Origin: Kiritimatiellia bacterium
GTDB lineage: Bacteria; Verrucomicrobiota; Kiritimatiellia; RFP12; UBA1067
NCBI GenBank assembly: GCA_027858965.1
Contig: JAQIBS010000175.1
Span: 1 to 64,000 of the forward strand
Reading direction: 5' to 3'
DNA length: 64,000 bases
Under the pieces are notes generated by a model. The model saw nothing but the letters and a program-made list of their open reading frames with translations, did not search any database and had not been told where the DNA came from. A program made the position numbers and the translations under genes. Numbering within the stretch: the first letter of the stretch is position 1; each line of letters starts with the position of its first letter. Below, piece after piece: positions 14,848 through 34,482 of this stretch.

Positions 14848-14913
14848 GGATAACATCTTCCTTCAAATCTTCCGAATTCTTATTGGGCAAAAGAAATATC
14901 GCACAGCTTGCGA

Positions 14914-16765: not shown

Positions 16766-18835
16766 TCAATGAATCAGGATAAGAGTTCCCTCATCTCTGG
16801 TCCGCCCCACCATAATCAGGTCAATTTCGTCATAAGGATCTTCAATGCGGATACCCCAGATCTGTTCAATCACATTTGTGCCGCCGGCAAAATCGGAGAT
16901 CCCGAATGCAACCCCGCCAATCTGACGTCCGGTATCTGTCATACCCCAATGGTTATAAGAAATCGAATGCGGAGTCAGGAAACCGCCCCAGTCACTGGAA
17001 GATATGTAAAGGGAGTGAGTCGAAATCGGAAAACGGTCAGCATCCAGAGGACGTACCGTAATCGGATCACTATCAAGGGTATTGTCCTCAATAATAAAAA
17101 TCCTGTCACCCGGATTTTCAACAGGGCTGGCAAACATCAATTCAATAGAAGAGCCTGTGATCAGCACACCATTCACAGCCAACCCCTCCAACGCGGCTTC
17201 CTTATTGGCTGGAGGTGTGCCATTCAGGGGATATACCAGATAAGAAGTTCCAGCCATATATATATTCGCTGCTGCCGATCCTTCAACAGAGTTCCAGTCA
17301 CGCTCCGCAGTTGATATGCCGGTGATCTTAAAATCATTAGTGATAGGATTATCGATAAAAACGCGATTGAATCTTGCCGCAGTCACAAGCTGGGCTGTCG
17401 ATCCGATAGACAGTTCTTCCGTAGGTCCCTGGTAGATACCCACCATTACAGGATCAAAAGAGGGGCTGGAATCCACAAATTGCAAGCCGCAGACATCGGT
17501 AAGCACACCGCTACCGCCAGTAAAATCACCCAAGTTGAAAGCCAGTCCATTGATTGTGCCTATGGTGCCGCTGTTAAATTGTATATCGAAAGCAACGTTT
17601 TTTTCACCAGTCAGATTCGCACTCCAGGCCGTACTGTTAGATATTATCAGCGACCAGTTGCCGATCGGATTTCTGAGCTCATCAAGAGGTCTTATAACAA
17701 AATCATAATCATCTCCATTGAATTCCAGCAGAAAAAAACCTCCTGGAGAACTGCTGGTCACAGTTGAAGCAAACATGACTTCAGCCGTGGAGATATTAAC
17801 AGGGAAATTTATATTGAGGCCGATGAGTGATTCGTCTGCCGTTACAGAATCGCCATTTGCCGGATATCGGACACCTTCAGCTGCTACCCATGCGTTGGTG
17901 GGCCCCTCGATATTTGTATAGCGCCCGTTTCCCAGAATAACGGAATCTATTTCAAAATCATGTGAGATGTAGTTTGCAAAACTGCCGCTGTTATCAGGAC
18001 GAGGCATGGGGTTGAATGTGGCACTCTGAATCTTCTGAATAGACAGATTCAGATCATTGACATCTGTTGTATAAAGGACTTCATCAATATAAGCCGTACG
18101 GTTAGCAAGGCCCGCTGTTGTAATTACAGTCCTATTGTGATCATACCCAGGCGATATGAACGAAATATCTGAATAGTTTGTAACTGCATTATTTGCATTT
18201 AGAATATCATTGAGTGTGGGGTTAACCCAGAACGTGGCATCTTCAGCAGAGTGATTGGACTCAGTAGCTGCTCCTGTGATTACAGTTTTAGCAACCAGGT
18301 GATAGGCTTTGCCAGGGGTAACCGAACCAAGATTAAAGGTAGCGTTATCATCTTCTCGCAATCTCGCTGTAAGGTGCCCCTCCATAATTCCGAGATCAAT
18401 AGCCATAAAAGTGGCAATATCGGTATCACGCCATGTAACATAAGCACTGCCATCTGCATCCGCAGACGTCAGCATGACAATCATACTCCAGTAATTGGTA
18501 TCACCGTGACTACATGGAAGCTCTGTAAACTCACGTGAGAGGGACCTTTTCGTATCGGCTCCCATACCTGCAAATTTATAACTCCCCCCTGATTCAATAA
18601 CAACTGGTGCATCAATAACGGTTGAACTCGATTCGGCATATTCAGTACCCGTCCACACACCCGTATAACCAAATATTGGTGCATTAGTCGGGCCCTGATC
18701 CTTAAAATCAAAATCGTTCGTGTAAGCACCATCACCGACAGGAAACGGATCGAATGCGATTGTTCCGGCAGACGCATTGCCAGCTCCCAGCAGAACAATG
18801 AACCCAGACATAACAACTACTAACCGCACACTCAT
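16766..18835 (-). CDS. Exported paralogue family protein 1, C-terminus GTLILIH
   Basis: 689 residues from the ATG (MSVRLVVVMSG) preceded by AGAGGAAG; the longer frame to 18934 is leader sequence. A signal peptide ends near GNASA. A ~270-residue N-terminal beta-rich domain (TIAFDPFPVGDGAYTNDF ...) resembles the 'DPF-GAYTN' exported proteins of PVC bacteria. Two tandem ~170-residue modules follow, sharing the pattern (RPLD-x5-PI-x3-SL; GLAF/GVAF-x2-DF-GG; VMVG). The protein ends in MVGRTRDEGTLILIH. No catalytic motif is visible; it may be a structural or carbohydrate-binding surface protein. It has two close paralogues, at 20418-22514 and 24772-26832. The C-terminal heptapeptide is shared with an unrelated protein at 31417-34482. 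Confidence 0.8.
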   Translation of the reverse strand: MSVRLVVVMSGFIVLLGAGNASAGTIAFDPFPVGDGAYTNDFDFKDQGPTNAPIFGYTGVWTGTEYAESSSTVIDAPVVIESGGSYKFAGMGADTKRSLSREFTELPCSHGDTNYWSMIVMLTSADADGSAYVTWRDTDIATFMAIDLGIMEGHLTARLREDDNATFNLGSVTPGKAYHLVAKTVITGAATESNHSAEDATFWVNPTLNDILNANNAVTNYSDISFISPGYDHNRTVITTAGLANRTAYIDEVLYTTDVNDLNLSIQKIQSATFNPMPRPDNSGSFANYISHDFEIDSVILGNGRYTNIEGPTNAWVAAEGVRYPANGDSVTADESLIGLNINFPVNISTAEVMFASTVTSSSPGGFFLLEFNGDDYDFVIRPLDELRNPIGNWSLIISNSTAWSANLTGEKNVAFDIQFNSGTIGTINGLAFNLGDFTGGSGVLTDVCGLQFVDSSPSFDPVMVGIYQGPTEELSIGSTAQLVTAARFNRVFIDNPITNDFKITGISTAERDWNSVEGSAAANIYMAGTSYLVYPLNGTPPANKEAALEGLAVNGVLITGSSIELMFASPVENPGDRIFIIEDNTLDSDPITVRPLDADRFPISTHSLYISSSDWGGFLTPHSISYNHWGMTDTGRQIGGVAFGISDFAGGTNVIEQIWGIRIEDPYDEIDLIMVGRTRDEGTLILIH

Positions 18836-18955
18836 TAGAGACTTCCTCTCTTTAATAACTTCCAACATATGAAGGTCCTGTTCACTCATTGCAATGCAGA
18901 AGAGCAAACAAAGACCACCAGGAACAAAAGACATACCCCTCTGTTCTTAATAGAA

Positions 18956-18983
18956 TATATAATAGGACCTGTATTAATTGCAA
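18956..18983 (-). promoter_or_regulatory. Promoter of paralogue 1
   Basis: Minus strand: -35 TTGCAA (18983-18978), 16-nt spacer, -10 TATATA (18961-18956), about 120 nt before the ATG. Paralogue 2 has the same elements at the same distance, and paralogue 3 has TTGCAA-16 nt-TATAAT. The conservation across three genes supports the call. Confidence 0.65.
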
Positions 18984-19048
18984 GAATTTTAACAGCGTTT
19001 TGGGAAAATGGGGCGCATATCAGTTCTTTTGAAATTCTTGAAAACTAA

Positions 19049-20389
19049 TCAATTAGCCAGAGTGGAATCATGGTCATTCCCCGTTGCTGCACGATAGGCG
19101 TCAAAGGACACCCCTTCCTTTTCCGCGCCATACCAGCGGAAAAGTTTAGCCTCCTTTGGGGCCGCACATCTCTGGATGTAGGTGTTGTGATTGACAGAAA
19201 TCTCATTCAGACGCGGATTGTGGAACCAGATCTGAGCATCACGGGCATTATTGAAAATATTGTGCTCGTAATGAATATCCTTGATCTTGCACTTCAGCGA
19301 GTAGGCCAGCAAATGACAGCCAGCGGCAGTGGGCCGCTGGACATGCCCCCATCCATAGCCGGAGTCGATACACTCATTGCCGGCAAAGAAAAGTCCATCG
19401 ACCTGCATCTCCGGGTTGGAGAACCAGATTTCGTAGGACTGTTCACAGCGGACGATCTTGTTGTTGCGCCAGATCATGTTACGAACCAGTCCATCACCTC
19501 TGCCCTGATTGGTCATGGCTGTGTCATAGATGTTCTCGAAGTAGTTGTTTTCAACGGTCATATCCTCGCAGCCGTTCCAGAACTCAACGCCGTTGCCATA
19601 GCGCGTCGGATTTCCGTTACGGGTATAAAGAAGGCTGCCTCCTATCCAGAGAAAATTGCAATTGCGAATCGTGCCATGCCTACAGTTACTCCCGTTAGCA
19701 CCGTGTGCACCGGTGTAGGCAATGGTCAAGCCATCAACAACAACATGGGTCGTATTTTGAAAACGCACGATGCCCCGCTTGAGAGCGGCCTCAATCTGCG
19801 AATAGGTGTTGGCCGGATTTCCATCGGAATAAAAGCATAGTCTGTTATCAGCGGGATCATGAAAAAAATCCCCCTGCTGCGTCAGGCTATTGATGCTCCA
19901 GCGTTTCCAGCCGGCGATCTTTTCTCTCTGACCTTTCTTAATCAGAATGATATTTCCAACATCGGCATTCAACCCCAGTGATTCATATTCCACCAGCTCA
20001 GCCCCGATGATACTGTCCTTACGGGTTTTCCAGATATTTTCTCCCTCGGAAACCCAGCAGTCAGGTGAACTCAGGTCAACACTGGCCTGGAGAGCCGGTT
20101 TGGCTCCCTCTCCGTAGCCGGTGTAAGTGACAGGCTGCCCTTCGGCGCCACTCTGGCAGATAAGAGATTCCCGCCAGATGTTGCCAGCCTTGAAGCGGAC
20201 AGTATCATCAGGCTTCAGATCAGCACGATTGACCTGCCCGATTGATTGCCATGCCTTTGCGGGGGCCAATCCCGAGTTGCTGTCGTTTCCGGACACTGCA
20301 TCGACAAAATATTCCGCTGCCTGCCCGGAGATGATCGTCATAATCATCACTCCCGTTGCCGTCAGATTGCACATCCACTTAACCATCAT
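19049..20389 (-). CDS. Exported right-handed beta-helix protein
   Basis: 446 residues with a signal peptide ending near GQAAEYFVDAVSG and an AAGGA ribosome site. The N-terminal EYFVDAVSGNDSNSGLAPAKAWQSI is the typical entry to DUF1565/Beta_helix polysaccharide-lyase-like proteins. It is followed by Asn-rich strand repeats (VDGLTIAYTGAHGANGSN, NYFENIYDTAMTNQGRGDG). Likely a cell-surface or periplasmic carbohydrate-active protein; no catalytic residues are assignable. It lies between two members of the GTLILIH paralogue family on the same strand. It could be co-transcribed with paralogue 1, although that gene has its own promoter. Confidence 0.75.
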   Translation of the reverse strand: MMVKWMCNLTATGVMIMTIISGQAAEYFVDAVSGNDSNSGLAPAKAWQSIGQVNRADLKPDDTVRFKAGNIWRESLICQSGAEGQPVTYTGYGEGAKPALQASVDLSSPDCWVSEGENIWKTRKDSIIGAELVEYESLGLNADVGNIILIKKGQREKIAGWKRWSINSLTQQGDFFHDPADNRLCFYSDGNPANTYSQIEAALKRGIVRFQNTTHVVVDGLTIAYTGAHGANGSNCRHGTIRNCNFLWIGGSLLYTRNGNPTRYGNGVEFWNGCEDMTVENNYFENIYDTAMTNQGRGDGLVRNMIWRNNKIVRCEQSYEIWFSNPEMQVDGLFFAGNECIDSGYGWGHVQRPTAAGCHLLAYSLKCKIKDIHYEHNIFNNARDAQIWFHNPRLNEISVNHNTYIQRCAAPKEAKLFRWYGAEKEGVSFDAYRAATGNDHDSTLAN

Positions 20390-20417
20390 TATCCTTCTTT
20401 AGTAGTTCAAACAATTT

Positions 20418-22514
20418 TTAATGAATAAGAATAAGAGTTCCACCGGCCTTGGTTCTTCCAACCATCATCATGTCAATCTTCTCGCGGTCAAAATAACTGC
20501 TCTCAACACGAATACCCCAGACATTTTCAACAGGAGCCGTACCGCCAGCAAAATCGGAGATTCCGAATGTCACACCTGCGATACTACGACCGGTATTTGA
20601 TCCGCCCCAGGCATTGTATGTAATCGTATACGGAGTAAGAGAACTGCCCCAGTCGCCGGGGCCAAGTTCCAAAGAGTGGGTTGAGATCGGGAACCGGTCT
20701 GCATCCAGCGGACGGACCTTAATGTAATTCCTATTGTTATCAAAGGTAATATCATCAATGATGAAAATCCTGTCATTCAGATCTTCAACAGGATTTGCAA
20801 ACATGAACTCCACATAGTAGCCTGTGTTCAGCACGCCATTCACAGCCGGACCTTCCAGCGCAGCATCCTTATTCGCAGGCGCAATTCCATTTATCGGATA
20901 TACAATCAGCGAGTCGCTATAAACATGTATATTGGCTGTTGCCGTCCCTTCAACACTGTTCCAGTCACGGGAGGCAGTTGATATTCCGGTGATTGCGAAA
21001 TCGTTGGTAATCGGATTGTCAGGAAAAGAGCGGTTGAATGTTGCAGCTGTCATCGGAGAGGATGTCGATCCACTGACAAGAGGCTCTGCCGCAGATCCGC
21101 TGTAGATACCCACCATTATCGGGTCAAATGTTGAGCTGGAATCCACAAACTGCAAGCCCTTGACATTGGTAAGCACACCGTTGCCTCCAGTGAAATCGCC
21201 CAGTGTGAAAGCCAGCCCATTAATTTTTGCATTGCCAGTGTTGAAGCGCACATCGAGAGCTGTAATATTTTCCTCCCCGGTAAGATTACCACTCCAGGGA
21301 GCACTGCCGGATAGCGTCAGAGACCAGTCATCGATTGGATTTCCGTCGGCATCCAGAGGCCTGACAACAATGCCCTCATCGTCGCCATTGGATTCAATCA
21401 CAAAGAATCCTCCCGGAAAATCGCTTGTCACTGTTGTGGCAAACGCAACTTCAGCAGTTGTGATATTACCTGCCGCATTCACATGAAGTCCGGTGAGAGC
21501 TTCATCGGCCGTGACTGTTTCTCCATTTGCCGGTTCGGTACCATTGACAGCGTTACCCGTCACCCATGCGTTGGTGGGACCCTCTAAATCTGTATAACGA
21601 CCAGCCTCCAAAGTGATGGAGTCCAGATCAAAATCATGCGTGATTTTGTGGTCATAACTACCACCGGCATCAGGTCGGGGCATAGGATCGAATGTCGCAC
21701 TCTGGAGCTTCTGGATAGAGAGATTAAGGTCATCAATATCTGTTGTATAAAGGATTTCATCGAAGTAAGCTACCCTACTTCCTATTTCGAGTGTGGAAAT
21801 TTCGACCCTGTCATGATCATAAGTGGGTGATATAAATGAAGTATTAATATGGTGAACTACCGCATTGTTGCCGGATCTGATGTCGCTGTACGTGGGATTT
21901 ACCCAGGCGGTGGTATCTTCAGTCGCTGGATCGAGAGGATTCCCTCTGCTTATTATGGCTCGGGCCACTAAATGATAGGCTTTGCCAGATATATATGAAC
22001 CCAGGTCCAAAGAAACAGCTCTGGAGTCTCCTGTTCTCAGCCCCGCGACAAGGCGACCATTCTTAATACCGAGATCAATACACATAAAACCGGATGCGAC
22101 GTTACGCCACGTAACATAAGCATCATCATTTGAATCCTGTCCGTTCAGTGAAATGATCACACTCCAGTAGTTCGTATCGCCGTGAGAACAGGGCACTTCT
22201 GTGAAATCCCTATAGACAGTTCTCTCTGTGACGTCGGCATGTCCGGTAAATCTGCAGCTCCCTCCCGACTCCAGAACAAGGGGTGCATCAACAGTGTTTG
22301 TAGTCGACTCAGCAAGCGAAGTGGTTCCCACCCATTTACCAGTGAAACCCACAATCGTTGCATTTGTCGGGCCCTGATCCTTGAAAACGGCATTGTTCGT
22401 GTAACCACCAGTACCGACAAAGAAAGGATCGAATGCAATTGTGCCAGCAGAAGCATTGCCAGCTCCCAGCAGAAAAAACAATCCAGACATAACAACTACT
22501 AATCGCACACTCAT
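20418..22514 (-). CDS. Exported paralogue family protein 2, C-terminus GTLILIH
   Basis: 698 residues from the MSVRLVVVMSG start with the same ribosome site and leader as paralogue 1. The architecture is identical: signal peptide (to GNASA), TIAFDPFFVGTGGYTN domain, two tandem modules (from SIQKLQSATFDPMPRPD and from AATFNRSFPDNPITNDF), and a terminal MVGRTKAGGTLILIH. About 130 bp upstream of the ATG is nearly identical to that of paralogue 1, so the copies arose by a duplication that included the promoter. No enzyme motif is seen. The conserved features suggest a secreted structural or adhesive role, which is inference. Confidence 0.8.
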   Translation of the reverse strand: MSVRLVVVMSGLFFLLGAGNASAGTIAFDPFFVGTGGYTNNAVFKDQGPTNATIVGFTGKWVGTTSLAESTTNTVDAPLVLESGGSCRFTGHADVTERTVYRDFTEVPCSHGDTNYWSVIISLNGQDSNDDAYVTWRNVASGFMCIDLGIKNGRLVAGLRTGDSRAVSLDLGSYISGKAYHLVARAIISRGNPLDPATEDTTAWVNPTYSDIRSGNNAVVHHINTSFISPTYDHDRVEISTLEIGSRVAYFDEILYTTDIDDLNLSIQKLQSATFDPMPRPDAGGSYDHKITHDFDLDSITLEAGRYTDLEGPTNAWVTGNAVNGTEPANGETVTADEALTGLHVNAAGNITTAEVAFATTVTSDFPGGFFVIESNGDDEGIVVRPLDADGNPIDDWSLTLSGSAPWSGNLTGEENITALDVRFNTGNAKINGLAFTLGDFTGGNGVLTNVKGLQFVDSSSTFDPIMVGIYSGSAAEPLVSGSTSSPMTAATFNRSFPDNPITNDFAITGISTASRDWNSVEGTATANIHVYSDSLIVYPINGIAPANKDAALEGPAVNGVLNTGYYVEFMFANPVEDLNDRIFIIDDITFDNNRNYIKVRPLDADRFPISTHSLELGPGDWGSSLTPYTITYNAWGGSNTGRSIAGVTFGISDFAGGTAPVENVWGIRVESSYFDREKIDMMMVGRTKAGGTLILIH

Positions 22515-22634
22515 TATTGACTTCCTCTCTTTAATAACTTCCAACACATGAAGGTCCTGTTCAATTATTGCAATGCAAAGCAGCAAACAAATACCACCAG
22601 AAATGCGAGACATACTCCACTGTTCTTATTAGAA

Positions 22635-22662
22635 TGTATAATAGGTGCTGTATTTATTGCAA
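22635..22662 (-). promoter_or_regulatory. Promoter of paralogue 2
   Basis: Minus strand: TTGCAA (22662-22657), 16-nt spacer, TATACA (22640-22635), about 121 nt before the ATG; the arrangement matches the paralogue 1 promoter. Confidence 0.65.
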
Positions 22663-22780
22663 GTAATAAAACCAGGGTGTATCCCCTGCGAGGAACCTCT
22701 GCAAAATGCGCTGGCTTTAATATAGTAAAATCCTTATAATTCAAAAACCATTTATTGGAACTCAGAAAAAATGGAATATT

Positions 22781-24742
22781 ATGAGATTTGTTGCATTACT
22801 TTGTTTATTTGGTTTTGTCTCCGTTCTACCGACATGGAGTGAGGCAGGCAATGTTTACGTAAATAACCAGACAGGGAATGATGCCCAGGATGGAACTTCT
22901 GCAGAACAGGCAGTGCAGACCCTGAAACAGGCTGTCGAACTATGCACTGCCGGTGATACGCTTCATCTGGCCAACACCGGCAGGGAATATCGCGAGAGCC
23001 TGATTCTGGGATCGCGCAGTGGCACCCCCTCCACGCCGATCATTGTGGAGGGCAATGGTGCCGTTTTGAGTGGTCTGATGACACTTCCCGTAGAGCAATG
23101 GCAGGATCGTGGTAACAGCCTGTACTTCTTTCCCTGCACAGTGCGGAAACAGATGTCCGCGGCGCGACCCTATGTTCTTTGGAACGGAAAGCTTGTGCCA
23201 CAGAAAAAGTCCCCTGCGGATCTCGCAGCTGAAGAGTGTTGCTGGAATAACAAAGGCATTCATTTTAGAGTCGCCAAAGGCAAGGGCATCTCTGACTACA
23301 AACTGGAAGGAACAGGACGTATATCCGGACTCATCCTCTCAGGCGGAAACTACATCGAAGTCCGAAATCTCATCTGCGAACGATTTGCCAATGATGGATT
23401 CAATGTCCATGGTAGCTGCCAGGGGCTGGTCTTCCGCAACATCACGGGACGCTGGAATGGCGACGATGGATTCAGCATACATGAAGATGTCGGGGCGGTT
23501 GTCCTCGGTGGCCACTTTCATCATAACGACTATGGCATTCAGGATATCAACATCTCGCGCTCCTCCTTCTATGGAGTGCTGGTTGAGAACAACAGGCGAG
23601 CTGGTGCTGATTTTCATGGAGGTGTACACACGCTTATTGATTCCGTAATCAGGAACAATGCCGGGCCTCAGGTCCAACTGAGTCAGGACCGCACAAAACA
23701 CATGCGACTTGCAATGGGGCCGCTCACAGATGGCATGCTAATCATGAAGAATACCCTGACCATCGGTGGGGAGTATGGAGTTGCCGTGCAGGCGGGAAAG
23801 GCCGACATCTCCAACTGCAGCTTTGTCGGAGCTAAAGTCGGTGCTCTGATTGGCCCTGAAACAGAAGTAGAGATGATCGGGAATGCCATCTACGGCTGCA
23901 AAAATCAGGAGCTGGAAGCCCGCTCGCCATCATGCATCCTTGACGCAAATCTGTATGCGCCCGGCCGCATAAGCTGGATGGATCAGAGATACAAACCCAT
24001 TGCTTTTGATACATACCAGAAAACATCTGAACAGGATGCCGATTCCGTTATGATCAATGCCCCGAGTCTGGCAGAATCCGAGGGATTCAGTCTCTTTGGT
24101 CACGGGCTTTCATACGGCAGGCATCTTATCCAACCGGGAATCAAAAAGGATCTCACATTCCCATTCGGGGCCCCCGTTCGCAACACAATAAAGGGACTCC
24201 CTGTTGCCTCAAAAAGCCATCTGAAGTTCAATTTCGCAACCAGCAATCCCTGGAGCCGCATTTATCCATCGCCCGAAAAGAATAAAGCAGGACAGGCGGT
24301 AGTCGGCACAGCCACTCTCTCTGAAGAACAAAGCCATTCCGGGGAAAAATCTGTTAAGCTGGTTATAAGCTTCCCGGCGGGGCAACCAGGTCCATGGCTG
24401 GTAAAACTGTTCAGCGTAAAGTTACCCACAGCCAAGCCCATAACCGAGATAAAATTTGTCCTATTCGGCGATGGTTCAGATCTATTCTACCAACCTCGAA
24501 TCCGCGATGCTTCAGGCGAGTGCTTCTACGGTCCTTCCGGCAAGATGAATTGGCAAGGGTGGCGCGAAATCACATGGGATTTATCCAGAACCGCACCCGT
24601 CAGCATCTACTCAGGCGACGGCAACAAAAAACAGGACGGACCGACTATGGAGCTGGTGCTGGAGCTCAAACCCGAGATCTCCTCCGAGGGCGGCCATCTC
24701 ATCCTCTATCTGGACGATCTTAGCGTCAGTATGGAAGAGTAA
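22781..24742 (+). CDS. Exported right-handed beta-helix protein with C-terminal sugar-binding-like domain
   Basis: 653 residues with a signal peptide (MRFVALLCLFGFVSVLPTWSEA). The N-terminal NVYVNNQTGNDAQDGTSAEQ is the usual DUF1565-type entry. Beta-helix coils run to about residue 420 (YIEVRNLICERFANDGFNVHG and similar, given in part). A C-terminal jelly-roll of ~150 residues follows (NPWSRIYPSPEKN ... HLILYLDDLSVSMEE), of a carbohydrate-binding-module type. It is the only plus-strand gene between about 10 and 47 kb, sitting between paralogues 2 and 3. Likely secreted and polysaccharide-directed; catalysis cannot be read. Confidence 0.78.
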   Translation: MRFVALLCLFGFVSVLPTWSEAGNVYVNNQTGNDAQDGTSAEQAVQTLKQAVELCTAGDTLHLANTGREYRESLILGSRSGTPSTPIIVEGNGAVLSGLMTLPVEQWQDRGNSLYFFPCTVRKQMSAARPYVLWNGKLVPQKKSPADLAAEECCWNNKGIHFRVAKGKGISDYKLEGTGRISGLILSGGNYIEVRNLICERFANDGFNVHGSCQGLVFRNITGRWNGDDGFSIHEDVGAVVLGGHFHHNDYGIQDINISRSSFYGVLVENNRRAGADFHGGVHTLIDSVIRNNAGPQVQLSQDRTKHMRLAMGPLTDGMLIMKNTLTIGGEYGVAVQAGKADISNCSFVGAKVGALIGPETEVEMIGNAIYGCKNQELEARSPSCILDANLYAPGRISWMDQRYKPIAFDTYQKTSEQDADSVMINAPSLAESEGFSLFGHGLSYGRHLIQPGIKKDLTFPFGAPVRNTIKGLPVASKSHLKFNFATSNPWSRIYPSPEKNKAGQAVVGTATLSEEQSHSGEKSVKLVISFPAGQPGPWLVKLFSVKLPTAKPITEIKFVLFGDGSDLFYQPRIRDASGECFYGPSGKMNWQGWREITWDLSRTAPVSIYSGDGNKKQDGPTMELVLELKPEISSEGGHLILYLDDLSVSMEE

Positions 24743-24771
24743 GCTCTATCAGATTCTGCACAAGAAAGCAC

Positions 24772-26832
24772 TTAATGGATCAGGATAAGAGTTCCGGTTT
24801 CCCTGGTTCTTCCGACAACCATCAGATCAACGTCGCCATCAGAGTTTTCAATACGAATACCCCATACGCTGTCGACCGTCCCCGTTCCACCGGAGAAATC
24901 CGAAAGACCGAACAAGACACCTGCGACCTTACGACCGATTCGCGTACCACCCCAGTTCTGGTAAGTGATTGTATACGGGGTAAGAGAGCCGCCCCAATCA
25001 CCCGTGCTGACTTCAATCGAGTGGGTTGAAATCGGAAAACGGTTTTCATCCAGCGGGCGGATCGTAATCTGATCATTGTCCATAGTGCTGTCCTCGATGA
25101 TGAAGATTCTATCGCCCTGATCTGTAACAGGGGTCGCAAACATCAACTCCATGTAGTAACCCGTTCCTAAAATACCGTTCACTGCCAACCCCTCCAGGGC
25201 AGCGCTTCGGCTTGCAGGTTCGCTTCCATTTTCAGGATATACCAGTTTATCCGCACCCGGCAGATGTATGTTAGCCTTCGAGGCCCCGACAAGCGAGGTC
25301 CAACTGCGGGTTGCCGTGGATATGTCGATAAAAGCAAAATCGTTGGTAATCGGATTGTCAGGAAAAGTCCGGTTGAATGTGGCAGAGGTCATAGGAAAGG
25401 CCGATCCACTTGGCAAGGGATCTTCTGTAGGCCGCTTGTAGATACCCACCATTACAGGATCAAATGAGGGACTGGAATCCACAAATCGCAGGCCGCAGAC
25501 ATCGGTAAGCACGCCGCTGCCGCCAGTAAAGTCGTCAAGAGTGAAAGCCATCCCGTTGACGGTGACTAAATGGATATGAAGCTGGACTCGAAGAGCTGTA
25601 GCCCCCTCTCCGGTCAGATTATCACCCCAGAGAGTGTCGGATGAAAGCGTCAGAGACCAGTCGCCAATGGGATCACTATTTTCATCTAGCGGCGTGACAA
25701 TAATATCGTAATCATCGCCGTTTGCCTCAAGCACAAAAAAACCGCCGGGGAAGCCGTTTGTCACGGTTGTCGCAAAAGCGACCTCAGCTGTTGAGGCATC
25801 CGTTATCGCATTCACGCGAAGTCCGGCAAGCGCCTGATTCATCGTAACTGTTTCACCGTTAACAGGCCAGGTGGCATTACTGCCCGTAACCGCTGCGTTC
25901 GTTGGCCCCTCGACATCGATGTATAGGCCACTCTCAAGCGTTATGGAATTAAGATCAAAATCATGCGTGATATAGTGATTATACACACCGCTGTCATCAG
26001 GGCGGGGCATAGGACCGAATGTTGCGCTCTTGATTTTCTGGATAGACAGGTTAAGATCATTGATCTCCGTTGTGTAAAGCAGCTCATCAAAACAGGCCGT
26101 ACGTCCGCTGATAGCCAGTGTTGTCATCTCAACCTTGTCGGGAACCCATCCTGGCGAAATAAACGAAATAGAGGTATTGTTGGCTGCTATATTGGTATCG
26201 TGAATTATATCGCTGCGTGTGGGATTAACCCAGGCAGTTGTGTCTTCATACCCCAAACCACCACCGCTGATTATAGCCCTGACAACAATATGGCAGGCCG
26301 TGCCGGGAGTATATGCCCCAAGATCCAGAGAGAGTTGCTCTCTCAATCGCACGAAGAGGCGACCATTCGAAATGCCAAAATCAACAGCCATATAAAGAAC
26401 ACCGGAATCACGCCATGTAACATAGACTTTACCATCGGAATCAGCTATATTCAGATATACGATAGCACTCCAATAGTTAGTATCGCCCTCCTGACACACA
26501 CCTAAATACTCAGGATCCGGAAAACTTCGGATGACAGTCCTCGTCGCGTCGTCAGTGAAACCTGAAAACTTGCATATTCCACCCGATTCCAGAACACAGG
26601 GAGCGTCAAGAGTCGTGGAACTTAAATCGGCAAGTATAGTGTTGCCAGACCAAGCCCCTGTAAAACCCAAAATCGGGATATTCGTCGGACCTTGATTTGC
26701 AATATCAGCGTCATTCGTATAAGCACCCGCTCCGATAGGAAAAGGGTCAAATGCGATTGTGACGGCAGACACAGTGCCCGCTCCCAGCAGAACAACCAAT
26801 CCTGATATAACAACAACTAACCGCACACTCAT
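24772..26832 (-). CDS. Exported paralogue family protein 3, C-terminus GTLILIH
   Basis: 686 residues from MSVRLVVVISG with an AGAGGAAG ribosome site. The signal peptide ends near GTVSA. Layout matches the other two: TIAFDPFPIGAGAYTN domain, two modules (SIQKIKSATFGPMPRPD; SATFNRTFPDNPITNDF), end VVGRTRETGTLILIH. It is the most diverged copy: the upstream leader is shorter and only the ~35 bp around the ATG and the promoter elements are conserved. Its 3' end converges with the 22781-24742 gene, only 29 bp apart. Confidence 0.8.
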   Translation of the reverse strand: MSVRLVVVISGLVVLLGAGTVSAVTIAFDPFPIGAGAYTNDADIANQGPTNIPILGFTGAWSGNTILADLSSTTLDAPCVLESGGICKFSGFTDDATRTVIRSFPDPEYLGVCQEGDTNYWSAIVYLNIADSDGKVYVTWRDSGVLYMAVDFGISNGRLFVRLREQLSLDLGAYTPGTACHIVVRAIISGGGLGYEDTTAWVNPTRSDIIHDTNIAANNTSISFISPGWVPDKVEMTTLAISGRTACFDELLYTTEINDLNLSIQKIKSATFGPMPRPDDSGVYNHYITHDFDLNSITLESGLYIDVEGPTNAAVTGSNATWPVNGETVTMNQALAGLRVNAITDASTAEVAFATTVTNGFPGGFFVLEANGDDYDIIVTPLDENSDPIGDWSLTLSSDTLWGDNLTGEGATALRVQLHIHLVTVNGMAFTLDDFTGGSGVLTDVCGLRFVDSSPSFDPVMVGIYKRPTEDPLPSGSAFPMTSATFNRTFPDNPITNDFAFIDISTATRSWTSLVGASKANIHLPGADKLVYPENGSEPASRSAALEGLAVNGILGTGYYMELMFATPVTDQGDRIFIIEDSTMDNDQITIRPLDENRFPISTHSIEVSTGDWGGSLTPYTITYQNWGGTRIGRKVAGVLFGLSDFSGGTGTVDSVWGIRIENSDGDVDLMVVGRTRETGTLILIH

Positions 26833-26910
26833 TACAGACTTCCTCTCTTTCAGAAATTCCAACATACCAGCAACACAAACTACGAAGATAAACTTATCAA
26901 TGTATATAAA

Positions 26911-26938
26911 ATTATACCGCATGCTAAATTAATTGCAA
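26911..26938 (-). promoter_or_regulatory. Promoter of paralogue 3
   Basis: Minus strand: TTGCAA (26938-26933), 16-nt spacer, perfect TATAAT (26916-26911), about 79 nt before the ATG. Same spacing and -35 as the other two paralogues. Confidence 0.7.
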
Positions 26939-27498
26939 GCCTTCAGATTTCAGCTGTCTGAGAAACCGCATAGATCTCACCTGTCAACGCCAGAAATACT
27001 TTTTGTAGTGAGGACTCGTACGGCTTCAAAGGCGGCCGGAGCGCCGAGTCGAATCAGTCAGTTTGATGCTATATGTTTTGGCGCACGAGGATTACATGAT
27101 TAACATGATTAAAGAAGGCTGTGGGATCACAGAAGCCTCACAGTAGTAATTCCTCTTGTTACCAGCTCCACTGGACCAGCCTTCTTTCTCCGTGCCTCTG
27201 TACTACTATCCTGTCGCGACTTGTTTTCTTGACTGCCATAGCCGGAGGCGACGGCTGTTTATGCACGTTTTTTAAACCACGGAGCCCACGGAGATGCTTG
27301 CCGGACCCACGCCGCGTTGCGGCTGAGTTCCGGCACTACTGAATGCCTATCAGTATTGCCTGAAATTAGGGCGGAACGCCCGTAGGTCGGGCAGATAAAT
27401 GCGATTCTTTTCTTCTTTGCGCCTCTGCGCCTTGGCGGGAGAAAATCTAACACGCTACAATTTTTCGTGGTAAAAAACTTTGCTCCTTAGAGGTAAAT
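26939..27498. repeat. Repeat-rich 560-bp gap
   Basis: No gene is supported here. It contains a GATTACATGATTAACATG microsatellite (27089-27112, related to those at 101-133 and 40142-40172) and the second copy of the 41-bp repeat (27220-27260). It also contains an AACCACGGAGCCCACGGAG segment near 27276 and a TTTGCGCCTCTGCGCCTTGG segment at about 27415-27434. The last two resemble dispersed families I recall from PVC and planctomycete genomes. Confidence 0.75.
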
Positions 27499-29673
27499 TT
27501 ATTTACTCCACAAATAAAAACGAACGCTTTCTGCAGGAACAGATTCTGTTACTTTCACCGGCTCGGTATTCCCTGGAGCATACACACCAAAAAGATTGCG
27601 TCCAGCAGCTGAAATTTTCACTGCCTGCGCTTTATCGCTGTAATTCCACACCACAACACCAAGCCGACCGTCTTCAGCGCGAAAAGCGTGTGCGACACAA
27701 TTATCACCCTTAAAGGTAAAGCCTTCTATATCGACAAAGCGACCACGCTTCAGGAAGTCAGCAAACTGGTTGCGCATCGCGATCACCTCTCGCATATACT
27801 TAGCCACCGGTTTCGGAGGCGTTGAGCAGACCATGCGTACATCCGGTGGCGAGTTGCAATCGGAGTAATCTTTCGGCACCGGCATCGTGTGTTTCAGGTA
27901 CTTCACGTCTCCGGTATAGCGGGACTCATTCTCATGCCGGAACCCGTAAAAGCAGGCAAAGTTTGCGATATTGCGTGTCGACATCGGATTAGGGTTACGT
28001 TGGGTTACGATAAGTTCGGGATATGTATATCGAAACAGCTCGGGGAAGGTCTTTTGCCCCGGTGTCGGAATAAAAGTTCTAAGCCCCACACCGCAGCCAT
28101 GAAAGTATGGGAAATCCTCCGCGAGACCATCAATAACCCACTCGGTCATGACAACGAATCCCGGCTTGCGCGCCCGCAATGCATCGGTAAGCCGCTTGGT
28201 AAGCCTGAAACGGTCCTCAGCCCATGCCTGAACCGGATTTGCGTGACCGTGCGCCTCATTATAGCAGAAACCCGTCCCCCCTATTCCGAACTGGTCATAA
28301 ATAAAGCCATCGGCACCAAGGTCCTGAGCTTCGGAGCCAAGTTTAAACATCCGTTGATACCACACCTCTGAGCCGAAACATCCCCTAGCAAAGGTCGGAT
28401 CGGGAGTCGATTTGAATTTGTTATACCGATCCGAGTAGGGCGTCCCATCGGATCGCATCGAAGTGCATTCAGCGCCATGTTTCTTGTAGAAATCCGAAGC
28501 GGTGTCAATCAGCTGTCCATTGGCATAAAGGATCACCTTCTTGCCGCGTTTCTGCACTCTTTTTATCGCCTTTTTAAGCACCTCAGGACCACCCATCTTC
28601 GGGTCGGGATAGTTGTCAGGATAGAGACGATCATGTCCACCATGAGCCCAACCGAAGAGGCCCAGCACATCGAGTCCCCACTCATCGGAGATATCAGCAA
28701 CCTTGTCGAGTTCGTCATAGCGGAACATAAGATCTCCGTTCTGCTGTTTGAGAATACAGAGAAACCAGCCGTTGTTTTCGTCTCGGACCCAATCGGGCGT
28801 CGGTGCCCACTTCATCCATGTATCGACCCATGCACGATAGTGCCGTGATGCCGCATGCCAGCTCCCTTTATACGGCATCACAACTGCCGGAGCCGACACC
28901 CAACTCCCACCAGCCATGCAGTACGGTTCATTTTCGAGCGAGTAATCATATCCGGATTTCCGATTGGCGATATTAAAACTCTTTCGTTTCCTTGCTTCAT
29001 CATGACACGCCAGATACAGCCCTGCCTTGCCACCGTCGAGAACAAAGTACTGCATTGAGCAACCTTGGCCCGATGGATAGGTTAAGCGGCGACTCTTTCC
29101 TAATTGCTTGGGTGTCAAGCGCTGACCAAGAACGTTCGGCAGAAGCGCGGCAATCTCCTGATGATCGCCACCCTCCTTGCGGATATCAAAGAGGATCGGG
29201 AATTTCAGGCTCTTTACGCAGCAACCGTCCGTACGATTATCAACCTTGGCAACAAATTCGAACTCATCACCTTTCTGAAGCACCTGGAGGGTCAGACCGA
29301 TCTTCCAGCTAGCCTGACCATGTTGAATCATGTCGTAGCTAAACTCGACACCCTTTTTAATCTTCGTAAACTTCGGCAGATTCTGATTGCTTGGTGTAAA
29401 GCTGATCGCATCGCTCAGTTTAAAGGAGCTTTCGCCCTTGGCAATCGTCATTTTCCACATTTCGCCGGGACGAACACTCCAGACCGGACAATCCGCACTC
29501 TTTGTCGTAAATTGCATCGCACCGTCAGGCGAAACACTCAGATTTCCAACTGAATTTTTCAGCACAACCTTCTTATCCGCAGACTTTTCAGCAAAAGATT
29601 CGATTGCTGAAAAAGCGACCAGCCCTGCCGTTACCGCAAAGATACAGGTATTTTTTACCAATGTTTGTTTCAT
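27499..29673 (-). CDS. Exported DUF6259-type glycoside hydrolase-like protein
   Basis: 724 residues from the ATG at 29673 (MKQTLVKNT), chosen because GGAGAA lies just upstream within the longer frame. A signal peptide ends near IESFA. A beta-sandwich N-terminus (to ~residue 290) contains YPSGQGCSMQYFVLDGG and YKGSWHAASRHYRAWVD, then a TIM-barrel-like region (GLDVLGLFGWAHGGHD, GADGFIYDQFGIGG, FVVMTEWVIDGLAEDF), where Asp in DQF and Glu in TEW are candidate catalytic residues. This is the DUF6259 layout, distantly like clan GH-D enzymes. It shares this layout with the 53845-56463 product. It follows the GH99-like gene by 40 bp and is probably co-transcribed. Substrate unknown. Confidence 0.75.
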   Translation of the reverse strand: MKQTLVKNTCIFAVTAGLVAFSAIESFAEKSADKKVVLKNSVGNLSVSPDGAMQFTTKSADCPVWSVRPGEMWKMTIAKGESSFKLSDAISFTPSNQNLPKFTKIKKGVEFSYDMIQHGQASWKIGLTLQVLQKGDEFEFVAKVDNRTDGCCVKSLKFPILFDIRKEGGDHQEIAALLPNVLGQRLTPKQLGKSRRLTYPSGQGCSMQYFVLDGGKAGLYLACHDEARKRKSFNIANRKSGYDYSLENEPYCMAGGSWVSAPAVVMPYKGSWHAASRHYRAWVDTWMKWAPTPDWVRDENNGWFLCILKQQNGDLMFRYDELDKVADISDEWGLDVLGLFGWAHGGHDRLYPDNYPDPKMGGPEVLKKAIKRVQKRGKKVILYANGQLIDTASDFYKKHGAECTSMRSDGTPYSDRYNKFKSTPDPTFARGCFGSEVWYQRMFKLGSEAQDLGADGFIYDQFGIGGTGFCYNEAHGHANPVQAWAEDRFRLTKRLTDALRARKPGFVVMTEWVIDGLAEDFPYFHGCGVGLRTFIPTPGQKTFPELFRYTYPELIVTQRNPNPMSTRNIANFACFYGFRHENESRYTGDVKYLKHTMPVPKDYSDCNSPPDVRMVCSTPPKPVAKYMREVIAMRNQFADFLKRGRFVDIEGFTFKGDNCVAHAFRAEDGRLGVVVWNYSDKAQAVKISAAGRNLFGVYAPGNTEPVKVTESVPAESVRFYLWSK

Positions 29674-29713
29674 ATTATTCTCCATTTTTTTGTCCTCAAA
29701 ACTACTTTAAAAT

Positions 29714-30934
29714 TCAACGACCCTTAGCGGGCACCAGCACCTTCCGCAATGCATCCAGGCGTGCAGCACCTTCTCCATGCGGTGGATACAGCGCAGGCAC
29801 GAGCCAACCTCCTTCATCCATCTCATTCCAAGCATAGATCAAGACCAGCTCCGAACCACTTTTTCCCGGGTGCTTTTTATACCATGACACCCCCCTACCA
29901 ACGTGAGCCGCAATCTCCTCTGGAGTTCCCCGCTCGTAGTAATACTTATTGGCATCTTTTTTAAGCTGGTAGGATTCCCAGGAAACAGGGTTCAGCACAC
30001 GTGGTCGATGGTCCCACCCGGTCATGCAGATCGGCACAGCCGGTTTTCCGGTAGCTTCGAAATATTCCCAGTACTTCTCGGCATTAGAGGCCAGCTCAGA
30101 GAACGAAGCACCCTTCGCCTTGCCGTTTGCTTTGGCATACGCACTCAGTGCGTCACCACCGAACATATCACAGTAACGTTTGGCTCTTGCAGGAGAGCCT
30201 TCACAAAAGACAAGGTATGGTTTGCCCAACCCACACTTGGCCAGTTCATTCGTAAAGGTCGGCCACTGTTCATCGAGAACTTTCTTTGCCAGAACATTAT
30301 TGAAAAATCCCACAAAAAGGACAGGACGGGTTTTCTGAACTTTCAGGTAGTTCGGCTCCTTAACCAATCTCAACATATATTTCCAATACGCCTTCTCCGC
30401 AGCAGCATCCGGAATGCGTCCGTAAGCTGGCCACATCGGAAGAAACAGGCTGAACTTGATCTTGTCACGATTCCGGCAGGAGAGAAAGGTCTTCAGTGTA
30501 TAGCTGAGCGGGGAGGGCTCAGGATACCCCGTAAAGGCCCAGTAGTCCAGACCACCATGAACAGCGTACTCTATCTCCTTCTCAATCACTTCAACCCGAT
30601 TCTCATTGAACTCCAAAGCTTTGCCGTCCGGATCAAGTGTCGTAAAAAATGGCCAGCGGTAGCGCCATGGCTCTGCCGCCAGACACCTCTGCGTCTCTTT
30701 GCCAGGATCCTGACTCACAAGCCGATTGCGATTGGTATCAAAACCGGGATACTGCACTGAGAGAGGCGGTTTAGCCGATGCAGGCAGCTTGCCATACCAG
30801 GCATCCCAGCGGATGGCCCCCACCAGCGGTCTCGGTTCTTCTGCAACGTTCTCCTCGGCTCTCGTCAGAACCGGACATAATAATATGCCGGTCAGAGAGA
30901 GATAAATAAACATAGAGTAAATAGTATGACGCAT
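29714..30934 (-). CDS. Exported GH99-like protein
   Basis: 406 residues with a signal peptide ending near VLTRA and an AAGGAAG ribosome site. The barrel begins GAIRWDAWYGKL and includes a His-Gly-Gly-Leu-Asp-Tyr-Trp strand and ICMTGWDHRP. The terminal IYAWNEMDEGGWLVPALY is the hallmark of GH99-like and WbsX-type domains, whose WNE Glu is catalytic in GH99 endo-mannanases. The exact family and substrate cannot be settled from sequence; endo-alpha-mannanase-like or another retaining/inverting activity is possible. It is first of a probable two-gene operon with the DUF6259 gene. Confidence 0.75.
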   Translation of the reverse strand: MRHTIYSMFIYLSLTGILLCPVLTRAEENVAEEPRPLVGAIRWDAWYGKLPASAKPPLSVQYPGFDTNRNRLVSQDPGKETQRCLAAEPWRYRWPFFTTLDPDGKALEFNENRVEVIEKEIEYAVHGGLDYWAFTGYPEPSPLSYTLKTFLSCRNRDKIKFSLFLPMWPAYGRIPDAAAEKAYWKYMLRLVKEPNYLKVQKTRPVLFVGFFNNVLAKKVLDEQWPTFTNELAKCGLGKPYLVFCEGSPARAKRYCDMFGGDALSAYAKANGKAKGASFSELASNAEKYWEYFEATGKPAVPICMTGWDHRPRVLNPVSWESYQLKKDANKYYYERGTPEEIAAHVGRGVSWYKKHPGKSGSELVLIYAWNEMDEGGWLVPALYPPHGEGAARLDALRKVLVPAKGR

Positions 30935-31142
30935 TAAGAACTTCCTTTCGGTTGGTTTAATAATAATGCACGATCGTTAGCGGGAGAGCCCCTCTCGCAT
31001 GCGTTTGAACTGACGTGGAAAATGATAAACAGAGTCAAATCCTGCTAAACACCATATCTCTCCACACGAAAGCAATCATACAACTGCTGATACAGAAATA
31101 TCTTTAATTTCCTCAATTGAATCGATTTGTTCGAATCAGCAT

Positions 31143-31343
31143 TTATTGTATCATGATAAGGGTGCCTTCGATCTGATTGAACCACTGACCGACCACGGCC
31201 GGGTCGAAGTACTCGAGGGAGGGATCCTCGATCCGGACGCGGTAGACATTACCCAGCACCCCTGTGCCACCGGCGAAATCGGACTTTCGTATCATGACAC
31301 CTTTCATCCATGACGACGTCTCATTGCTCAAATCATAGGGCAA
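31143..31343 (-). pseudogene. C-terminal fragment of a fourth GTLILIH-type paralogue
   Basis: Only the last ~66 residues remain (from a TTG codon, no ribosome site). They align with the end of the three paralogues: SDFAGGTGVLGNVYRVRIED corresponds to their SDFAGGTNVIEQIWGIRIED, and the C-terminus is IEGTLIMIQ. Upstream, the frame is closed by stops, so the N-terminal ~620 residues are lost. It lies immediately downstream of the beta-strand-repeat gene that has the same terminal motif. Confidence 0.7.
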
Positions 31344-31416
31344 TGCGCAAGTTCTAAAGTGAAGTCAGGTGTGATGTATTAGTCACTAAAATGTGAACTT
31401 ATTTCAGCGTGGGCCC

Positions 31417-34400
31417 TTAACGTACCAGTATCAATGTCCCGTCCAGAGGCGGAGTAATCAGGATGCCGGTGCCACTGAAGTACTCGTCGAATTTATGATC
31501 GGCTGCACTCGCGCTGCTGCCGAAGGATCCTGAACCATCACCGTAGGTGACACCGCCAAGTATAAGTGTCCCTACCCGCTCTTCCATGCCGGCGGCCAAA
31601 GTCATACCGGTAGCGTTGTCGGCATCATTGGCGACAATGATGGTCGCCTCTTCGCTCAGGGAGTCTCCGGTGTTTTGAATTTCGACAATGGCGCCGGAGA
31701 ATATTTCGATCTCCGTGCAGTTGGTGATGGAGCCGGTTCCCGAGACGAGAAGCGTGCCGCGCTCGATCTGAATTGCACCACTGAAGGTGTTGGCAGCATT
31801 GAGCGTAATTGTACGATCTGCCGCTATGATGCGCCCCGTTGCAGTGTCGTTGATGATCATTGTTCCCGTGCCGGAAATGATGCTGTTCACAATCATGTCG
31901 CCCCCATTGACACCGGCCGATCCGCTGTACCCTGTGTACAGATAAGTGGTGCCGGAACAGGCGATTGTGCCGGCAAACGTGCTCGTGCCCGCCGGATTCT
32001 GGCCCGCTGCCCAGAGTTTTCCGCCGTCGTTGAGCGTAATCGGCATGGTAAAAGTCCTGGAATCACCTATTACGACGTAGGTGCCGAGTGTGCCGCCGGA
32101 GTTGATAACTACCGGTCCTGCAATCGTGAAGTTTGCATTCTCCAGATACATGTGTCCCTGGTTGATGATGACACCGCCGGTGCTATCCTGGATGTTCGCA
32201 GTGCGGAAAGGAACGGAGTTGTAACCTGTCTTGGTCAGCACGTAACCGTTGAAGTCGATGTAGCCGCCGAGATCAAAGCGGGAGCTTCCCCCGATTGTTG
32301 CATCCGCGCTAAGGTTCAGGCCGTTTACACCATTGGCAGACATAATACTTGCCGATCCGGTCTTGATCAGTGCACCCTGGCCAGCCGTTCCTGCGCCTTC
32401 AATGGTATAGGTTCGCGCGTTCGCGCTGAGGTCCGTCAGGGCACCAAGGTCCACTGTGGCACCGTCCTCAATCGTGACAGATCCGCTGGGCAATGCATCT
32501 TTGGCACCCCAGTACAGAATGCCTTCTTCGACGAGCGTATTGCCTGTCGAGGGACTGTCGGCACCTGAGAGTTTAAGGGTGCCGTTGCCTTGCTTGGTCA
32601 AGCCGCCAGTACCTTCGATGATTTTGGTTATAGCAGCACTCTCACCGGTGTTCGCCACTGACACCACGCTGGGTGCCCCGGATAGCGTTAGACTGCCGTT
32701 CTCGTTGGTGTCCGCAATCGTATAGCCGTCTGCATTGAAGGTCATGTTGCCCACCATGACGGGGTCGTCGAGTTCAATTTCTTCGCCCGTACCGGTGAAA
32801 ATTGCATTAGCGTTCTGGAACCAGGCAACACCGGCGTCCCAGTTGGGTTCGCTTATGTTCCAGTCATTATTGGCGTTGACGTCGATCCATGTCATATCGG
32901 ACGGCACCGTAGTGATCCTGATCACACCGGTGCCGCTAAAGTATTCGTCGTTCTGCACGAGCGCCCCGCTTGTCGAGCTGCCGTACGTGCCGATTGTGGT
33001 CTGGAGCACGCCACCCAGCAGGATAGATCCGACCGCGTCGTCCACACCCGCAGCCAGAGTGAGTCCGCTTCCTGTATTGCCATCGTTGGAGATTACAATG
33101 GCAGCGACGTCACAAAGAGCATTGACGGTGTTGGACACGACCAGCGTTGTTCCGGCTGCCACATCAACCAGAGGGCTGTTGGTCACGGAACCACTGGGTG
33201 CGAGAATCAGCGTGCCCTTTTCGAGAGCTACGCTTCCTGTAAACGTGTTGGTGGCATGGAGAATGACAGGATAGGTGATCGTGCCACTCAGCGCCATATT
33301 GGCGGGATTAATTTTCAAATTGCCGTCGCCGCCGATTTCACTGTACACATCTGTCTGAGTGTCACGTTTAGTTTCATCATTGATGAGAGTCTCGCCCGTG
33401 CTGCCCCAGGCGATCTGGATTGCACAGTCACCGTTGAGGGTCAACGTGCCGTAGTAGGCGACTTGTGGAATCCCGGTGGTGCCGGATGCGTTGTAACTTG
33501 TGCCGACGATCCCGGCGTCATTCAGGACAATGTCGGCATCAACGTTGCACGATCTACTAGGCCCATTATAGGAAAGCAGCGAAAAATATGCGCTGGCATT
33601 GACGATAATGCCGCCATCCACACTCTGGATGGCCCCGTTGCTAATCTCGAGCTGCACTAATCCCTCATCGACGGTAATCGCCCCGCCTGTGCCACTGACA
33701 AAAGACCCGCGCATGTTCCAACTTCCCATGCCGATCTTCGTTAGACGGTGTCCTTGTAGACGCACTGTGTAGGGGTCGGTCCGGCGCAAGTTGGCCACCT
33801 TGGCATCGTCTGCCAGATACAGGGGATTCATATTGTTGCCGCCGCCCATGTATGTTGAATTGTTGATTATCGCGCCGCTACCGTCGACTCCCGTGCCTTG
33901 AATCGTGAAGCTACGCACGTTGTAATCGTTTTTGATCGGAGTTGTATACTGCAGCGTTGCGCCGTCTTTAACGGTGACACTCCCACTGGGCAGCACATCC
34001 GTATCTCCCCACTGAATGGTTCCGGCATTGATGATCGTGTTGCCGGTTGAGGGGCTGCTCGCCCCCGTCAGCACGAGGATGCCATCGCCCTCTTTTGTCA
34101 GACCGCCCGAACCGGCGAGCACCTCGCTGATCGTGTTCGTTGTGTCTGCCGCCACTGTGATCACACTGGGTGCTCCCATGAGCGTTAACGTACCGTCTAT
34201 CGTGGCGTCACCGATATCGTAGTCCGTGGCATTGAAGGTTATGTTGCTTACAGACACAGAGCCGTTGATATCCAGGACTTCACCCACGCCACCAAAGATG
34301 GCGTTGTTGCCGTTGGCCCAAACAACGCCCGTGTCCCAGTTGAGGTCTGTCGTGTTCCAATCGTTGTTGGCATTGGTATCGATCCATGTCTGATCCGCCG

Positions 34401-34482
34401 CATGGAGTACGCAGACAAGACTCAGAGTTGCTAGAAAAACTGACCGCTTGCAGATACCGTCGAACATTTTTTTAATTCTCAT
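31417..34482 (-). CDS. Exported autotransporter-type beta-strand repeat protein, C-terminus GTLILVR
   Basis: 1021 residues with a signal peptide (FLATLSLVCVLHAA) and a GGAGTGG ribosome site. Two tandem ~490-residue halves begin TWIDTNANNDWNTTDLNWD and TWIDVNANNDWNISEPNWD. Each contains autotransporter-associated beta-strand repeats (GTGGLTKQGNGTLKLSGA; NTFSGAIQIERGTLLV) and ends with EYFSGTG. The repeats should form a long parallel beta-helix displayed outside the cell. No autotransporter translocator barrel, PEP-CTERM or sortase tail is present. The protein ends ITPPLDGTLILVR, matching the paralogue family elsewhere in the window, so export or anchoring may use that tail. A role in surface adhesion is inference. 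Confidence 0.85.
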   Translation of the reverse strand: MRIKKMFDGICKRSVFLATLSLVCVLHAADQTWIDTNANNDWNTTDLNWDTGVVWANGNNAIFGGVGEVLDINGSVSVSNITFNATDYDIGDATIDGTLTLMGAPSVITVAADTTNTISEVLAGSGGLTKEGDGILVLTGASSPSTGNTIINAGTIQWGDTDVLPSGSVTVKDGATLQYTTPIKNDYNVRSFTIQGTGVDGSGAIINNSTYMGGGNNMNPLYLADDAKVANLRRTDPYTVRLQGHRLTKIGMGSWNMRGSFVSGTGGAITVDEGLVQLEISNGAIQSVDGGIIVNASAYFSLLSYNGPSRSCNVDADIVLNDAGIVGTSYNASGTTGIPQVAYYGTLTLNGDCAIQIAWGSTGETLINDETKRDTQTDVYSEIGGDGNLKINPANMALSGTITYPVILHATNTFTGSVALEKGTLILAPSGSVTNSPLVDVAAGTTLVVSNTVNALCDVAAIVISNDGNTGSGLTLAAGVDDAVGSILLGGVLQTTIGTYGSSTSGALVQNDEYFSGTGVIRITTVPSDMTWIDVNANNDWNISEPNWDAGVAWFQNANAIFTGTGEEIELDDPVMVGNMTFNADGYTIADTNENGSLTLSGAPSVVSVANTGESAAITKIIEGTGGLTKQGNGTLKLSGADSPSTGNTLVEEGILYWGAKDALPSGSVTIEDGATVDLGALTDLSANARTYTIEGAGTAGQGALIKTGSASIMSANGVNGLNLSADATIGGSSRFDLGGYIDFNGYVLTKTGYNSVPFRTANIQDSTGGVIINQGHMYLENANFTIAGPVVINSGGTLGTYVVIGDSRTFTMPITLNDGGKLWAAGQNPAGTSTFAGTIACSGTTYLYTGYSGSAGVNGGDMIVNSIISGTGTMIINDTATGRIIAADRTITLNAANTFSGAIQIERGTLLVSGTGSITNCTEIEIFSGAIVEIQNTGDSLSEEATIIVANDADNATGMTLAAGMEERVGTLILGGVTYGDGSGSFGSSASAADHKFDEYFSGTGILITPPLDGTLILVR

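Follow-up and report, generated by a model that had tools for sequence, protein, structure and literature searches.

A heptapeptide tail with the consensus G-T-[LVIM]-I-[LIMV]-[VI]-[RQHYK] directly before the stop codon was found on about 100 large, otherwise different exported proteins, mostly with an N-terminal signal peptide, in a draft genome of the class Kiritimatiellae (5.93 Mb, 256 contigs). The window, i.e., the whole stretch of 64,000 nucleotides that was analysed, is part of contig C210 of this genome. The tail was revealed to be a modular suffix, which keeps a fixed register to the stop, follows unrelated bodies via variable, often Pro-containing linkers, and is present on none of the internal copies of the same domains. 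We interpret it, with a probability of roughly 70%, as a lineage-specific C-terminal sorting or anchoring signal on large Sec-exported surface proteins. This reading had been put forward in a first-pass annotation of the window and is supported by the terminal excess, the diversity of the bodies and the tail-less internal copies, from which we infer the sorting or anchoring itself.

All five coding ends of the window for which a shared terminal G-T-L-I-[LM]-[IV]-[HQR] had been reported were confirmed. The features are given below; the coordinates of the tails (24 nt each) take in the stop codon.

16766..18934, minus strand: exported paralogue 1, ORF of 722 aa ending in GTLILIH; the likely start is a downstream ATG near 18889
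16766..16789, minus strand: tail GTLILIH and stop of paralogue 1 (GGA ACT CTT ATC CTG ATT CAT TGA)
20418..22613, minus strand: exported paralogue 2, ORF of 731 aa ending in GTLILIH
20418..20441, minus strand: tail GTLILIH and stop of paralogue 2
24772..26922, minus strand: exported paralogue 3, ORF of 716 aa ending in GTLILIH; its domain is repeated internally without the tail
24772..24795, minus strand: tail GTLILIH and stop of paralogue 3
31143..31364, minus strand: 3' remnant (73 aa) of a fourth copy, ending in GTLIMIQ and resembling the 883-aa carrier L112
31143..31166, minus strand: tail GTLIMIQ and stop of the remnant
31417..34482, minus strand: PATR/autotransporter-type beta-strand repeat protein of 1021 aa with a signal peptide, ending in GTLILVR
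31417..31440, minus strand: tail GTLILVR and stop of the 1021-aa PATR protein (GGG ACA TTG ATA CTG GTA CGT TAA)

The identity of paralogue 1 with the two other window paralogues is 62% and 57%. None of the three matched a Pfam or NCBIfam family, and a search of the named genomes with the paralogue revealed no relative. The relative of the remnant, L112, lies elsewhere in the same genome, and the 1021-aa protein was assigned to the PATR/autotransporter repeats via TIGR02601 and PF12951. Between positions 11058 and 43482 of the window, the carriers are interleaved with tail-less carbohydrate-active and beta-helix exported proteins in an arrangement like that of a polysaccharide-utilisation locus; these neighbours comprise sialate esterase/GH2-like, melibiase-like and GH10-like proteins, DUF6259 and beta-helix proteins. 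Beside the decayed fourth carrier copy, at 30960-31060 on the minus strand, there is a remnant (AGFDSVYHFPRQFKRMREGLSR) that looks like the terminal part of an AraC-type regulator, an intact-looking relative of which is present in L133 near another carrier.

In a DNA-level search of the own genome, the strict pattern G-T-L-I-x-[IV]-x-stop gave 36 matches versus 0 for the reversed pattern; with G-T-[LIVMF]-I-x-[IV]-x-stop, 95 matches versus 0 were obtained, and the loosest form of the pattern gave 111 versus 5. A scan for G-T-x-I-x-[IV] in six frames over the whole genome revealed 95 of 119 matches to be located exactly one codon upstream of a stop (binomial p ~1e-90), which is the fixed position expected of a generic C-terminal sorting signal. 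The 21 non-terminal matches that were read were mostly short non-coding frames, and none was found at 0, 2 or 3 residues from a stop. Thus, the peptide is almost absent from the interior of proteins and its register to the C-terminus is fixed; the comparison of terminal with internal occurrences, as proposed in the first-pass annotation, came out with a huge terminal excess. Near-miss tails were also seen, namely GTIILLQ (L164, 3710-6085), GTKFLIR (L282, 8116-11853), GTLLLLH (L279, about 13853-15001), GTAVLVQ (L288, 5630-8305) and ATLILVK (L291, 3-6284), so that the pattern counts, above all in other genomes, are lower bounds.

The logo of 97 tails of the own genome showed G in 97/97, T in 94/97, I in 87/97 and V or I in 95/97, with L, V, I or M between T and I, and L, I, M or V between I and V/I. 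The last residue was R (26 tails), Q (23), H (13), Y (11) or K (11), with few L, N, F and W; among the 97 tails, none had D, E, G, A, S, T or P in this position. Pro was enriched two and three residues before G (two before: 28/97 in the own genome, 16/56 in other genomes), and beyond this mild excess, no conserved column was found upstream of G in the 97 tails. The 56 tails from other genomes yielded the same logo, the last residue being mostly R or K.

The tail is conserved as a peptide, not as DNA: the coding 21-mers of the 93 carriers were all distinct (93/93), they encode 66 distinct heptapeptides, and every synonymous codon of G, T and I occurs, which rules out recent copying of DNA. The first-pass annotation had reached the same conclusion from codon differences within the window. 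Its argument holds because of the genome-wide diversity of the 21-mers; the three window paralogues and the remnant constitute one family and have their codons in common. All three stop codons follow the tail (48/23/22) with a median in-frame extension of 12 codons; a read-through stop hiding a transmembrane tail was ruled out by this usage, the short extensions and the lack of a hydrophobic stretch in them.

Among the 92 carriers scanned, LamG (PF13385) was found in 28 and PATR in 27, the two superfamilies together making up about half of the carriers; the other bodies included CBM96, G8, DUF2341, DUF642 and PA14. With the tail removed, BLAST of the carrier ends gave between 24 and 47 homology clusters, the number varying with the threshold. 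A confinement of the hits to one homologous family, which had been looked for, is thus not what was found. A signal-peptide-like N-terminus, as called by a simple home-made rule and not by SignalP, was present in 71 of 82 gene-called carriers versus 96 of 210 other genes of the same stretches (p = 5e-11). The carriers therefore combine a suffix on unrelated bodies with, by this heuristic rule, N-terminal signal peptides, as is general for sorting signals and as the first-pass annotation had anticipated. The tails in other genomes were again located at the ends of large proteins of diverse types. On contig C11 of genome G443 (L220), tandem genes about 13 kb apart all end in GTVIIVR, with tails at 6988, 20002, 32925, 46226 and 59244; in the part that was read, a 4,212-aa frame follows the first tail-ending gene.

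Strict matches of the tail were obtained in 44 of 144 related genomes; those relatives that bear a name are Kiritimatiellae MAGs. In a phylum sample of 388 genomes, clear counts were confined to the class of the window, where the same register was found in several families; examples are genomes G028 with 13 tails, G240 and G443 with 9 each, and G020, G032 and G014 with 8 each. The terminal excess was replicated within the class: a further 14 genomes had 88 terminal matches out of 235 (expected about 6%, p ~1e-44), while ten tail-less genomes gave 0 of 35.

It was considered, as the first-pass annotation had allowed, whether the carriers share a terminal fold whose last strand is the heptapeptide, its likeness to a signal being superficial. 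The alternating hydrophobic pattern of the tail is indeed that of a beta-strand. However, the terminal domain is often duplicated within the same carrier, which provides a built-in control, and in such carriers the internal copies, up to 77% identical, align as far as the linker and then stop without the heptapeptide. In L110, TMEEKAS comes after the internal copy (77% identical) and AGTLVLIQ after the terminal one; the tail is also missing from internal copies in L177 (67%), L163 (59%), L175 (55%) and the window paralogues, as well as from the internal repeat copy (EYFSGTGVIRI...) of the protein at 31417. Sixteen LamG carriers were found to be aligned through the domain, divergent in the linker and alike again at the tail, the distance between the LamG end and the tail ranging from a few to more than 50 residues. 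Against a closing strand, there is further the lack of a conserved column before G apart from Pro, and solved homologous LamG domains stop before the position of the tail. AlphaFold analysis of one LamG carrier (mean pLDDT 67.7; most domain blocks 60-87) yielded the LamG sandwich and a terminal helix, whereas the last 11 residues (230-240) had a pLDDT below 50 and no secondary structure; the model of a window paralogue (pLDDT 39.3) was too poor to be weighed. The missing heptapeptide of the internal copies and the disorder in the LamG model imply that the tail does not close a fold common to the carriers, and we regard this explanation as most improbable.

The first-pass annotation had further stated that the carriers of the window possess neither a barrel nor a PEP-CTERM helix or LPXTG-like tail. 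Over the whole genome, an 18-residue hydrophobic stretch within the last 60 residues was found in only 3 of 93 carriers, leaving 90 without a transmembrane-like segment. The logo contains neither a PEP motif nor a basic cluster, TIGR02595 was absent from the matches of the carriers, and the tripartite features of LPXTG and GlyGly-CTERM (motif, transmembrane helix, basic tail) were not seen in the tail. As in PEP-CTERM/exosortase (TIGR02595/PF09721), a single suffix is carried by many signal-peptide proteins whose bodies differ, but the tail is a heptapeptide without PEP motif, transmembrane helix and basic cluster. The suffix logic is also that of LPXTG/sortase and GlyGly-CTERM/rhombosortase; carriers of GlyGly-CTERM are homologous only at the C-terminus, they combine the suffix with a signal peptide, and anchors are swapped within families (PMC3237569), a pattern which the tail fits, apart from the transmembrane helix of those tripartite signals. 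In L217, an NCBIfam choice-of-anchor Q domain immediately precedes the tail (39.7 bits, cut-off 25). Domains of this type are named for variable C-terminal anchors, directly upstream of which the choice-of-anchor domains (e.g., NF041518) stand, as in L217; for the tail itself, unlike these domains, neither NCBIfam nor Pfam contains a family model. As far as can be judged from these comparisons, the candidate signal fits no known family among those tested.

PEP-CTERM matches numbered 7 in the own genome and 16-39 in several tail-less genomes, and no genome with at least 12 PEP-CTERM proteins had more than one strict tail match; the inverse relation over 144 genomes was not significant (rho -0.14, p = 0.09). 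In the tail-less genome G137, the PATR protein L199 ends in a PEP-CTERM (VPEPST..RRRQR), whereas PATR carriers of the own genome, to which it aligns weakly (25% identity), end in the tail. The tail thus appears to take the place held by PEP-CTERM on similar proteins of sister lineages. Exosortase was detected in 135 of 144 genomes, irrespective of the tail, a near-ubiquity in the class that makes it an unlikely dedicated partner. Two exosortases are encoded in the own genome (G000:C221:8570-9331 and C91:53586-54374; frames of 298 aa and 569 aa) despite its 7 PEP-CTERM matches.

The strictest residues of the tail alternate: one face carries T (position -6), I (-4) and V/I (-2), the other the looser L/V/I, L/I/M and R/Q/H/Y/K, and Gly stands before them. 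This strict alternation and the exact register to the carboxylate suggest that the tail docks as an additional beta-strand whose C-terminus is recognised. A carrier would be exported to the periplasm, where a dedicated receptor, translocon or transpeptidase would recognise its free C-terminus; the tail may dock in this reader, located in the periplasm or outer membrane, as an added strand with the carboxylate in a pocket, whereupon the carrier would be brought to the cell surface or attached to it. In its most specific form, for which we see about even chances, this would be a sorting code of new architecture, in which seven residues without a transmembrane helix or domain are read as a strand plus free carboxylate by a putative receptor or transpeptidase, on about 100 giant surface proteins per genome of an uncultured Kiritimatiellae clade, in place of PEP-CTERM. 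A sorting signal of only seven residues would be unusually short, which speaks against the sorting or anchoring reading as a whole.

Alternatively, the tail could be a stripped-down type-IX-like signal, corresponding to the PxGxYVV strand of the T9SS C-terminal domain (CTD) and recognised or cleaved by a C25 peptidase with a different translocon. C25 is the gingipain/PorU family, and PorU is the T9SS sortase, itself bearing a CTD; likewise, one C25 protein of genome G095 ends in GTIILIR. C25 genes were found in 29 of 44 tail genomes versus 33 of 100 others (odds ratio 3.9, p = 4e-4) and in 19 of 22 tail genera; phylogeny and genome size are confounders of this association over the 144 genomes. 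Two C25 genes are encoded in the own genome, but no C25 match was obtained in G028 with its 13 tails or in genus g30, several C25 genomes lack the tail, and a C25 family of 1650 aa is common in tail-less phyla; C25 as the sortase is a weakly associated lead only. The beta-strand pattern, the Gly and the Pro two residues before it recall PxGxYVV, and in both cases the extreme C-terminus matters, the last 22 residues of the CTD, with this motif, being sufficient for export (PMC5445135, PMC4804311). Yet the CTD is a beta-sandwich domain (PMC4804311, PMC5445135), while the tail consists of seven residues placed after a complete domain of unrelated type. No CTD match (TIGR04183 or TIGR04131 type) was obtained among 92 carriers, and no SprA match in 26 genomes, although no control genome gave one either; T9SS itself is improbable on these results, and a stripped-down relative of it is unlikely.

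A detached outer-membrane beta-signal, read by BamA or a related Omp85 insertase that tethers non-barrel proteins, is improbable in our view. The spacing of this signal near the C-terminus, G-x-x-phi-x-phi, is similar to that of the tail, G-x-x-I-x-V plus one residue, and BamA was present in every genome tested. However, the carriers are not barrels, as seen from their LamG, PATR and CBM bodies and the LamG model, and their last residue is polar or basic, whereas that of the beta-signal is usually aromatic. Normally one Omp85 is encoded per genome, with or without the tail, so that no dedicated insertase is visible. A role in assembly or turnover instead of sorting, either as a donor strand for a common polymer or as a C-terminal degron for a periplasmic protease, would agree with the strand-like pattern, the strict C-terminal register and the large, repetitive, adhesin-like carriers. 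Such a role is unlikely as well: a degron on about 100 native exported proteins is hard to explain, and a donor strand needs an acceptor groove, none of which is common to the carrier bodies.

Regarding the machinery behind the preferred sorting or anchoring signal, no receptor, protease or secretion component for the tail was found among the SprA, secretin, Omp85, exosortase and C25 candidates. Secretin and Omp85 families were present with and without the tail, and an expansion of either was rejected because tail and tail-less genomes are alike. When the surroundings of 20 tail genes from other genomes were inspected by eye, no recurrent partner was noticed.

To our knowledge, bacterial anchoring signals are either tripartite (motif, transmembrane helix, basic end) or whole domains. 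In the literature searched, nothing relevant was found on the motif or on sorting signals in Kiritimatiellae; the tail would thus behave like a C-terminal sorting signal whose architecture is not described in the family libraries or literature searched. A seven-residue, stop-anchored tag on about 100 large lectin-like and beta-strand repeat proteins would imply an undescribed surface receptor or enzyme in Kiritimatiellae, those with the tail probably being polysaccharide degraders. The tail makes otherwise unannotated surface proteins of the class recognisable by sequence alone, and, if its reader is found, it could serve as a very small portable tag.

Several further observations were made on C25 genes. 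A Peptidase_C25 gene of about 800-900 aa repeatedly adjoins a gene of about 90-130 aa (L273, 7096-9760; L274, L277, L279, L281); in L273, the small neighbour is PqqD (PF05402, E 2e-14), and the pairing is possibly an unrelated peptide-modification or export pair. In L272 (7757-14022), the gene after that of a C25 protein of about 1650 aa encodes an ApbE flavin transferase (PF02424, verified for this locus), and gene ends like it were also found alongside large C25 relatives in L276, L280 and L287. The large C25 proteins (L272, L276, L278, L280, L282, L284) end in ...F[FY]R[VLI]... instead of the tail, and this C-terminus may represent another terminal domain common to proteins of the clade.
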